Source: Natronosalvus amylolyticus
Lineage (GTDB): Archaea > Halobacteriota > Halobacteria > Halobacteriales > Natrialbaceae
NCBI RefSeq assembly: GCF_024298845.1
Contig: NZ_CP101160.1
Location: 248,001-312,000, forward strand
Reading direction: 5' to 3'
DNA: 64,000 bases
The translations under genes and the position numbers were made by a program. This document shows, in pieces, positions 13,312 to 64,000 of the stretch; the first letter of the stretch is position 1, and each line of letters opens with the position of its first letter. The notes beneath the pieces are model-generated. The model did not search any database and had not been told where the DNA came from. It saw nothing but the letters and a program-made list of their open reading frames with translations.

Positions 13312-13395
13312 TATAGTAGCCAATGAAAGTCATTGCACATCCTTTCGTAAGAGGATGTCGCGTTAGGTGTGTAAATCGTTTCACTGGCTACTATA
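13312..13395. repeat. 84-bp foldback repeat (MITE-like), family 1 copy A
   Basis: The ends TATAGTAGCCAATGAAA and TTTCACTGGCTACTATA are inverted repeats matching at 16 of 17 positions; the interior is also an imperfect palindrome. It matches the copy at 60031-60114 at about 72 of 84 positions without gaps. A TA at both borders is compatible with TA target duplication, as in IS630/Tc1-type mobilised MITEs (inference). Confidence 0.75.
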
Positions 13396-13818: not shown

Positions 13819-13902
13819 AATAGTAGCCAGTGAAAGTCATTGCACATCCTATCGCAAGACGGCGTCGTGATAGGTGTGTGAATCGTTTCACTGGCCACTC
13901 TA
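13819..13902. repeat. 84-bp foldback repeat, family 1 copy B
   Basis: Same layout as copy A: left end AATAGTAGCCAGTGAAAG, right end TTTCACTGGCCACTCTA, and shared interior including AGTCATTGCACATCCTATCG and AATCGTTTCA. It abuts a further degenerate copy on its right side. Confidence 0.72.
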
Positions 13903-13982
13903 GTAGCCACTGCAGACATATACTCCACCGGTTCACAGAGATCTCGCCGTTGGGTATGGAGATCGTTTCAATTATTACTGTT
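13901..13982. repeat. Degenerate family 1 foldback repeat, tandem with copy B
   Basis: It starts TAGTAGCCACTGC directly at the end of copy B and finishes GATCGTTTCAATTATTACTG, which matches the right end of the family. The interior has diverged. The two units appear to share the junction TA. Confidence 0.45.
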
Positions 13983-38857: not shown

Positions 38858-39232
38858 TGGTTCGTCACGGCTGCATGTGTGAGCCGGACGATGAGGTTAG
38901 CTCCACACATCGACGCTTGACGGAGTCCTAGTGGCTTCCCAAACCTAAACTGGTGGGTGAAATCAGGCGGTGCGATTCGATTTCACCCATGAGTCGACGT
39001 TTGGGAGGGTACTAGACCAGAGTGTCCAACCCACACGAGGAGTACGCCCCTCGATCCCTGGATCATGATCTCAGACGAGTCGATTTCGAAATTTCGCTTC
39101 GGACCTTCATTCCGATTCGGAGCACGGCTCTCTACTGCGTCGACGCTATCTGCAGATTTCATGGCAGAGTGCCTCGAGGTCGACTCCGGGCATTCTCCTT
39201 TACGCTTGTAAAACACGGGACATCGGCCGTCC
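38858..39232. other. Intergenic spacer containing a family 2 foldback repeat
   Basis: About 375 bases. It holds the 88-bp repeat at 38928-39015; the remainder (39016-39232) has only short frames without acidic protein character. No gene is recognised. Confidence 0.5.
38928..39015. repeat. 88-bp foldback repeat, family 2 copy (CTAG ends)
   Basis: The element begins CTAGTGGCTTCCCAAAC and ends GTTTGGGAGGGTACTAG, inverted repeats matching at 14 of 17 positions. An inner perfect 11-bp pair (TGGGTGAAATC at 38954-38964, GATTTCACCCA at 38979-38989) strengthens the hairpin. Reverse-complemented, it aligns without gaps to 51365-51452 (about 61 of 88 identical). Confidence 0.7.
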
Positions 39233-51364: not shown

Positions 51365-51452
51365 CTACTACCCGCCCAATCGTCGGCAGTTGGATAAAAC
51401 CGGACACCCGCAATCGGTTTCACGCACGAGTACAGGTTTGGGAAGCCACGAA
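51365..51452. repeat. 88-bp foldback repeat, family 2 copy
   Basis: CTACTACCCGCCCAATCGTC at the left and AGGTTTGGGAAGCCAC at the right match the reverse complement of the 38928-39015 copy, without gaps and with about 61 of 88 identities. It fills most of the spacer between the IclR start and the sulfatase stop. Confidence 0.62.
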
Positions 51453-56289: not shown

Positions 56290-56393
56290 GATAGTAGCTA
56301 TTGAAACGAAGTCCACACCGATCGCGATCCGTTTTTTCGATAAGGCGGACAATGCCTTTCGATGACTACGATAGCGGCTCAATGGCTGCTATA
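56290..56393. repeat. Diverged family 1 foldback repeat
   Basis: Left end GATAGTAGCTATTGAAA and right end GCTCAATGGCTGCTATA are inverted repeats at about 12 of 17 positions and resemble the TATAGTAGCC family ends. The interior is longer (104 bp in total) and does not match the 84-bp copies well. Confidence 0.45.
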
Positions 56394-58398: not shown

Positions 58399-58502
58399 GT
58401 ACCTTCGGCATCCTCGAGTAGATGACAACAATCCCGATCAATCGAGGTCCCGGATTGAATCGATTTTTACATCGCCAAAACCGTAACAGCTACAATGGTA
58501 CA

Positions 58503-59168: not shown

Positions 59169-59393
59169 CGCCCAAAACCGTTTTGATTAGCCAGAAGACC
59201 ATCTACAGTGACTGAAATGATTTCAGTGGCGCACTGAGACCGTATGATTCGTCACGAACCATGCGCTGTCCTCGAGGAAATCGAGCGTTCTGATAGGGAG
59301 GATTGTAACTGATTACCGGTCACTGCCGGTCCGGGTCTGTCGCTGACCGATAAGAGGCGACAACATACCCTATGAGGCTATTTCCGGATGAAT

Positions 59394-59476
59394 TATAGTA
59401 GCCATTGCAAGTCATTGGACACCCTAACGCAAGACGGCAACGCGTTAGGTTCTAAATCGTTTCAATTGCTACCATA
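59394..59476. repeat. 83-bp foldback repeat, family 1 copy C
   Basis: Starts TATAGTAGCCATTGCAAG and ends TTTCAATTGCTACCATA; interior shares AGTCATTG, CGCAAGACGGCA and AAATCGTTTCAA with the other copies. TA is present at both borders. Confidence 0.7.
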
Positions 59477-59916: not shown

Positions 59917-60526
59917 CGACGCCCTTTTGCCTTCGTTCGAAGCGCTCGAGTTGACGTATAACGTTCGACGAGTGCCTCGACAGTGAGTGATTGCATCCAC
60001 AAATGTGGCCAACTGGCCTCGAGTACAACCTATAGTAGCAATTGAAAGTCATTGCACATTCTCTCGCAAGATGGCATCGCGATAAGTGTGTAAATCGTTT
60101 CAATGGCTACTATAGTTCGCCGACAACTGCTCGGTTTGTGATCGTGTGTCCCAACCAATCGAAGCCTATGCCGTACAAGTGCCCAGCGATTTGAGCGGTA
60201 TCGACTCGAGGAGTAATCTGGTGAGGAAATACTCCGCATATAGAGCGATCGCGGATACGTTCTTGCAACAGAAAGAAAGGAGCATCGGTGTCTCATCGAG
60301 ACAATCAGTAGCAGTAATTTCATCGGGTTTGTTATCGTCTCTTACCGGTCGGCGACGAACCGGAGTGATCGCTAACCGGTAAGCCGTTACAAAAATCCCT
60401 CTGAAGGGCAATCTATCGTGACTCGATACTATCCGTTGGCACTCGCTCAGTCAGACATCATCGGGTCAAGCGAGTCATTGTAAATAAAAACCGGAGGGAC
60501 TTTCGCGTGCGTTCGGATTTTTAGCT
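59917..60526. other. Intergenic spacer with a family 1 foldback repeat
   Basis: About 610 bases. It contains the repeat copy at 60031-60114. Short frames on both strands downstream of the repeat (60120-60420) have no acidic protein signature. The permease gene's 3' end is at 60527; no ATPase gene follows it here. Confidence 0.45.
60031..60114. repeat. 84-bp foldback repeat, family 1 copy D
   Basis: Ends TATAGTAGCAATTGAAA and TTTCAATGGCTACTATA are inverted repeats; gap-free match to copy A at about 72 of 84 positions. TA at both borders. Confidence 0.75.
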
Positions 60527-63650: not shown

Positions 63651-64000
63651 TTACCGTTCGCGACCCTGCATCACACCGAAGCGGTGAACCAGATGCTGGG
63701 TCCGGTCTGGCACTTCGTGGTAGAAGGGGTGATCGTCGGGGAAGGCGAAGTCACGCGTGTTGCCCCACAGCGCGTTGACCTGCGGGAAGAGGTCGGGACG
63801 TGGCAGGTCGTAGTTGAAGTACGTCGCGAAATCCTTGATGATCTCGATTGAGGCTTCTTCGTCCTGCGTGTTGACGAACTCGTCCCACATCTCGATGAGA
63901 TTGACCTCCTTGGTCGGTCCCTCAAGATAGATATCGCCCGGATTTTCGGGAATTTCGACGACGATCGGTCGACCGTTGTTGGGCGAGACCTCGAGGCCCT
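63651..64000 (-). CDS. C-terminal end of an Opp/Dpp-type solute-binding protein (truncated by window)
   Basis: About 115 residues read leftward from the window edge to the stop near 63651. The segment (EMWDEFVNTQDEEASIEI, then NALWGNTRDFAFP and HRFGVMQGRER at the end) matches the C-terminal lobe of family 5 binding proteins, where the last helices pack on the ligand lobe. It is most likely the partner of the permease pair at 60.5-62.6 kb, whose gene order would then be binding protein, B, C with the cupredoxin-like gene inserted in between. Confidence 0.75.
   Translation of the reverse strand, partial: GLEVSPNNGRPIVVEIPENPGDIYLEGPTKEVNLIEMWDEFVNTQDEEASIEIIKDFATYFNYDLPRPDLFPQVNALWGNTRDFAFPDDHPFYHEVPDRTQHLVHRFGVMQGRER

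Follow-up and report, generated by a model that had tools for sequence, protein, structure and literature searches.

The short foldback repeats in the window, i.e., the whole 64,000-nucleotide stretch of Natronosalvus amylolyticus DNA analyzed here, are best explained as copies of a non-autonomous 80-bp MITE of the IS630/Tc1-mariner type, a reading to which we assign a probability of about 0.88. The initial annotation had arrived at an IS630/Tc1-type MITE, and this proposal is now strengthened by about 120 copies in the genome, by related ends in haloarchaeal IS630 elements, and by empty sites in a sister species. The element is short (80 bp), non-coding, bounded by terminal inverted repeats, and dispersed over approximately 122 places.

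Structure of the Element and Its Copies in the Window

With the flanks trimmed, the element proper comprises 80 bp (79 bp in copy C) between two TA dinucleotides, with the outer layout C-TA-[TAGTAGCCAnTGAAA...TTTCAnTGGCTACTA]-TA-G and the consensus C-TA-[TAGTAGCCAgTGAAAGTCATTGCACACCCTATCGCAAGacgGCGTCGCGGTAGGTGTGTAAATCGTTTCAcTGGCTACTA]-TA-G. It has 15-bp terminal inverted repeats and no coding capacity, and forms a near-complete hairpin (foldback z = −7.4 versus shuffles). Exactly 80 bp were measured for 41 of 43 cores, and pairwise identity of copies ranges from 51 to 100% (median 87.5%), with one identical pair. Longer versions of the MITE, with identical ends and another, extended interior that is palindromic, were seen at L241 (G003:C62:7928) and L329 (G003:C133:38581).

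The four copies listed in the initial annotation were all recovered in place, and an unbiased repeat search assigned them to one family. Copy A (80 bp, 13314..13393, plus strand) lies between TA duplications at 13312–13313 and 13394–13395; a diverged counterpart occupies the matching site in the relative G004, which makes A an old insertion. Copy B (80 bp, 13821..13900, plus strand) is flanked by AA and TA and abuts the left end of the older, degenerate copy E (approximately 13901..13980, plus strand), which is still legible in the sequence. B is missing from G004, where only E is present (C12:337610–337687, recognized at E = 1.3e-9). A further degenerate copy, F (56292..56371, minus strand; covariance-model match C5:304288–304375, E = 2e-12), was also found in G004. 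The same applies to copy C (79 bp, 59396..59474, plus strand; TA duplications 59394–59395 and 59475–59476), which is 96% identical in G004 within a stretch of about 98% identity, and to copy D (80 bp, 60033..60112, plus strand), which is 90% identical there and shows the complete C-TA-element-TA-G arrangement with TA at 60031–60032 and 60113–60114. Identity in the repeat search was 86% for A and D and 85% for A and B, and the lower score of C is due to its 1-bp gap. The earlier estimate that A and D agree at about 72 of 84 positions was therefore right (86%), and the count of at least four clear copies stands, with the degenerate E and F as two additions. The 84-bp unit described at that time applies if both TAs are counted, but the element itself is shorter by these four bases.

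Further repeats were observed in the same region. A second foldback family is represented at 38931–39012 and, partially, at about 51412–51450, and also lies beside copies of the 80-bp family at L012, L025, and L026. It measures about 82 bp between TA, with ends GTGGCTTCCCAAACC / GTACCCTCCCAAACGTCGACTC within CTAG, and these resemble TAGTACCGTCCCAACC / TAGTAGCTTCCCAAGCGTCGAGT, the termini of an IS630 element of 1.2 kb from haloarchaea (L195, L196). Since the second family thus resembles a different haloarchaeal IS630 group at its ends, IS630-derived MITEs recur in this genome. A third repeat family (about 59310–59370 and 60327–60398) contains an inner palindrome, TTACCGGTCAGCGAC...GTCGCTGACCGGTAA; a repeat of about 70 bp is found in G004 and is absent at window position 58422. 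From this position to the window end at 64000 and on to C5:317864 (C5:306422–317864), an 11-kb stretch shares about 98% identity with G004, compared to about 90% in the surrounding DNA, which suggests a recent exchange between the two species.

Copy Number and Distribution

The window lies on contig C5 (417 kb), and the genome comprises 4.2 Mb. Exact TAGTAGC...GCTACTA ends spaced 58–78 bp apart occur at 45 places in this genome, compared to 4 for a reversed control pattern. From 40 copies we built a covariance model, which returned at least 150 strand-specific matches (E-values from 5e-29 to 0.003), corresponding to at least 122 distinct places after removal of strand duplicates. The genome-wide search that the initial annotation had recommended thus yielded about 120 copies, and the family is far beyond chance. 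Among Natronosalvus genomes, the model gave 0, 2, 4, 25 (an incomplete genome), 66, 98, 107, and at least 108 copies, the last value being that of our own genome. Copy numbers range from 0 to 107 across the host family, with some genera at zero, and sampled genomes from other families of the order contained almost none under a stricter filter. The 84-bp unit (element plus TAs) is also carried, at 74–89% identity, by plasmids of Natrinema, Haloarcula, Natronorubrum, Halomicrobium, Haloterrigena, Halostella, Natrialba, and others; the phage records searched with this unit gave no match. The patchy distribution of the element is typical of mobile DNA.

Target Site and Gene Context

We could examine the borders of 43 distinct copies. 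TA is present on the left in 37 and on the right in 37, and on both sides in 32, in line with the initial observation of TA borders in most cases. Furthermore, the left border reads C-TA in 32 of the 43, and the right border reads TA-G in 25. Both hallmarks of IS630/Tc1-mariner insertion, duplication of a TA target and preference for CTAG, are thus found. The preference for CTAG is seen although this motif is scarce: it occurs 38 times in the window, compared to about 240 expected from base composition, i.e., it is about six-fold depleted. IS630 of Shigella favors a TA that lies within CTAG (Tenzen and Ohtsubo 1991, as cited in PMC2170065), and the rule given there, together with the Tenzen papers it cites, is that TA is duplicated, preferably inside CTAG. 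For ISY100, occasional AA or one-sided TA flanks were described in vitro as minority products (PMC2170065), and these resemble the flank exceptions seen here (AA or one altered TA); the exceptions are explained equally well by later mutation.

According to heuristic gene calls, none of the 43 copies lies inside a predicted gene, which agrees with the intergenic position noted for the first four. By the same calls, the flanking genes are convergent in 13 cases, tandem in 16, divergent in 8, and undetermined in 6.

Filled and Empty Sites in a Sister Species

Two comparisons with G004 were made, one between 337 kb of C5 and 400 kb of contig C12, the other covering 20 kb of C1. Three insertion polymorphisms between our genome and the sister species were identified, one of them reciprocal. 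The copy at C5:345032–345111 corresponds to an empty site in G004 (CGGTGGC-TA-[80 bp]-TA-GAACACC versus CGGTAGG-TA-GAACACC), and so does the copy at C1:1092396 (GGCATC-TA-[79 bp]-TA-ACAACCC versus CGCGTC-GG-ACAATCC at G004 C45:14741–14742). In the reciprocal case, G004 is filled at C12:261670 (GAAAC-TA-[~80 bp]-TA-ACTGACGGC) and our genome is empty (GCGAC-TG-ATTGACGGC). The elements are mobile, having inserted at sites that are empty in the other species. All three empty sites keep a single dinucleotide, which is a clean TA in one; GG and TG in the other two require later mutation. Copies A, C, D, and F are common to both genomes, so the insertions span a range of ages. The empty sites with GG and TG, copy B with no clean duplication, and the absence of any sign of present-day movement count against the reading as an IS630-type MITE.

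Two further sites deserve mention. At C5:89222, an 80-bp element and an adjoining element of the second family are both missing in G004. At L177 (position 19303), the match to G004:C45 ends at a MITE copy of our genome, about 140 bases from the contig end, as if the repeats broke the draft assembly of G004 there.

IS630 Relatives and the Possible Source of the Transposase

Our genome contains three matches to DDE_3 (PF13358), which we read as remnants; they lack MITE ends and were ruled out as the source of the MITE. In the host family as a whole, DDE_3 genes are present in 68 of 121 genomes. The commonest high-scoring haloarchaeal IS630 group has a modal length of 1,055 bp and is hosted by Natronococcus, Natrinema, Natrialba, Halosimplex, Halorubrum, and others. 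Among 74 resolved elements of this group, TA flanks both sides in 71, and C-TA is found in 65 and 62 on the two sides, respectively. The ends read TAGTA(G/A)nC(G/A)TTAGAA, also given as TAGTAGnCRTTAGAA, and are thus similar, but not identical, to those of the MITE. Compared with the MITE end, they reached a mean score of 7.5, versus 2.95 for 1,899 other TAGT 17-mers, a set from which MITE-like sites had been removed, lowering its score a little. The best match comes from Halorubrum aquaticum (L288), whose end TAGTAGCCATTAGAAA is one base apart, by an indel, from the MITE end TAGTAGCCATTGAAA. At L079, an element of the 1,055-bp group is inserted within a MITE copy, at CTAG and with TA on both sides. 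At positions 11–15, however, the IS630 group reads TAGAA almost without exception and the MITE TGAAA, and the transposase of this group may therefore not be the actual partner.

Neither among the haloarchaeal IS630 elements nor in searches for solitary ends did we find a full-length IS whose ends are exactly TAGTAGCCAnTGAAA. The search for a matching transposase that the initial annotation had called for was thus successful in part: related TAGTAG... ends, the TA duplication, and the CTAG target were recovered, but not the exact end. Solitary ends that continue unlike the MITE gave 13 and 11 matches with two patterns covering about three quarters of the possible continuations. Most of these matches were inspected or corresponded to copies already known, and all but two were read as mutated, truncated, or longer-interior MITEs; for the remaining two (L237 and L238), no paired copy was resolved. 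Four other IS630 types (ATACTC..., ATAGTG..., TAGTACC..., and TAGTGTAGC...) were rejected because their ends do not fit.

We infer mobilization in trans. The terminal repeats would be bound by the transposase of a haloarchaeal IS630 element, from a group whose ends start with TAGTA(G/A)nC; the enzyme would cut the MITE out and insert it into a TA, which is thereby duplicated. The partner could be the 1,055-bp group with ends TAGTAGnCRTTAGAA, the nearest one found, or an unsampled sister group. Copies would subsequently decay without visible function, and few if any new ones are probably made in our genome today, as its IS630 genes are remnants.

Alternative Explanations

Three other origins were weighed against a MITE of the IS630/Tc1-mariner type. 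The repeats could be a conserved structured RNA or regulatory element, i.e., an 80-nt hairpin transcript acting on its neighbors or as a terminator. The strong foldback (z = −7.4) would suit such a role, as would the 92% of pair cells that are standard (26–45% in slid versions), two inner positions that are G-T in many copies and would be tolerated only by a one-strand RNA, and the frequent placement between convergent genes (13 of 43). Covariation is weak, however, with two-sided changes in only 5 pairs (shuffled mean 3.5), driven by one pair in the terminal repeats that splits two subfamilies, and inner changes are mostly one-sided. Moreover, where the sister species has the same copy, its conservation does not consistently exceed that of the flanks (copy versus flanks: 0.75 versus 0.64/0.49; 0.68 versus 0.76/0.66; 0.96 versus 0.96/0.99; 0.90 versus 0.99/0.90; and 0.76 versus 0.54/0.69). 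Weak covariation and the lack of a consistent excess of conservation over the flanks argue against a regulatory RNA, in which one would expect compensatory base changes and, among orthologous copies, purifying selection. Gene context is mixed, copy number falls to zero in a congener, and an Rfam search of the window gave no match. We consider an RNA highly improbable. The initial annotation had named a lack of further copies, or copies that prove to be conserved RNA, as outcomes that would overturn its reading; copies turned out to be numerous, and little points to a conserved RNA.

Only marginally more credible, and still very unlikely, is a small mobile repeat (SMR) as in Haloquadratum, an element with inverted terminal repeats moved by unknown machinery and without target duplication. 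According to PMC3119063, SMRs are of similar size (HqIRS41 has 80 bp), with prominent terminal repeats and many copies, and here, too, the exact transposase partner was not found. Yet SMRs are defined by the absence of target duplication, whereas 32 of our 43 copies have a TA duplication; their ends are unrelated to any transposon, whereas ours resemble an IS630 group; and SMR-A targets IS605-type elements, whereas our copies lie in ordinary intergenic DNA. A MITE of another transposase family with TA or CTAG borders, e.g., some IS5 subgroups, seems the least probable origin. IS630 is not the only family that duplicates TA, and the direct partner was not found, but the first 5–8 terminal bases, the C-TA...TA-G layout, and co-residence are common to the MITE and the haloarchaeal IS630 group. 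Apart from the question of origin, the hairpin interior might itself be under selection, as a second site for the transposase or a host factor or as a one-strand RNA. The interior is recognizable at about 74–89% identity in many haloarchaeal genera and its length is fixed near 80 bp; we regard such selection as unlikely, if less so than the three origins above.

Comparison with Known Systems

In our literature search, we found no earlier description of the 80-bp family, a new, fairly ordinary representative of a well-known type of element. This high-copy element of haloarchaea is unannotated; its consensus, target rule, and host range as defined here are useful for annotation and strain typing. 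Plant Stowaway and other Tc1/mariner-type MITEs are likewise hairpin-forming and TA-flanked and are moved in trans by related transposases; these are eukaryotic, and their sequence is unrelated to ours.

MITEs of Haloquadratum walsbyi are short and non-coding, share only the terminal repeat with a transposon, and moved even where no working transposase remained, according to the description in PMC3119063, on which our comparison is based. A similar puzzle is posed here by about 120 copies in a genome with no intact matching transposase, as for some of the H. walsbyi MITEs. The SMR-A and SMR-B elements of H. walsbyi are alike in their size of 80–110 bp and prominent terminal repeats, but differ in having no target duplication and no related transposon, according to the same source. 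The 1,055-bp haloarchaeal IS630 group differs from our element at positions 12–13 (or by one missing base) and is not represented by an intact copy in our genome, but shares the outer end TAGTA(G/A)nC, the TA duplication, the CTAG target, and the host range. Finally, while the element has no transposase and only 80 bp, unlike IS630 and ISY100, it corresponds to both in its TA duplication, CTAG preference, and short terminal inverted repeats (PMC2170065).
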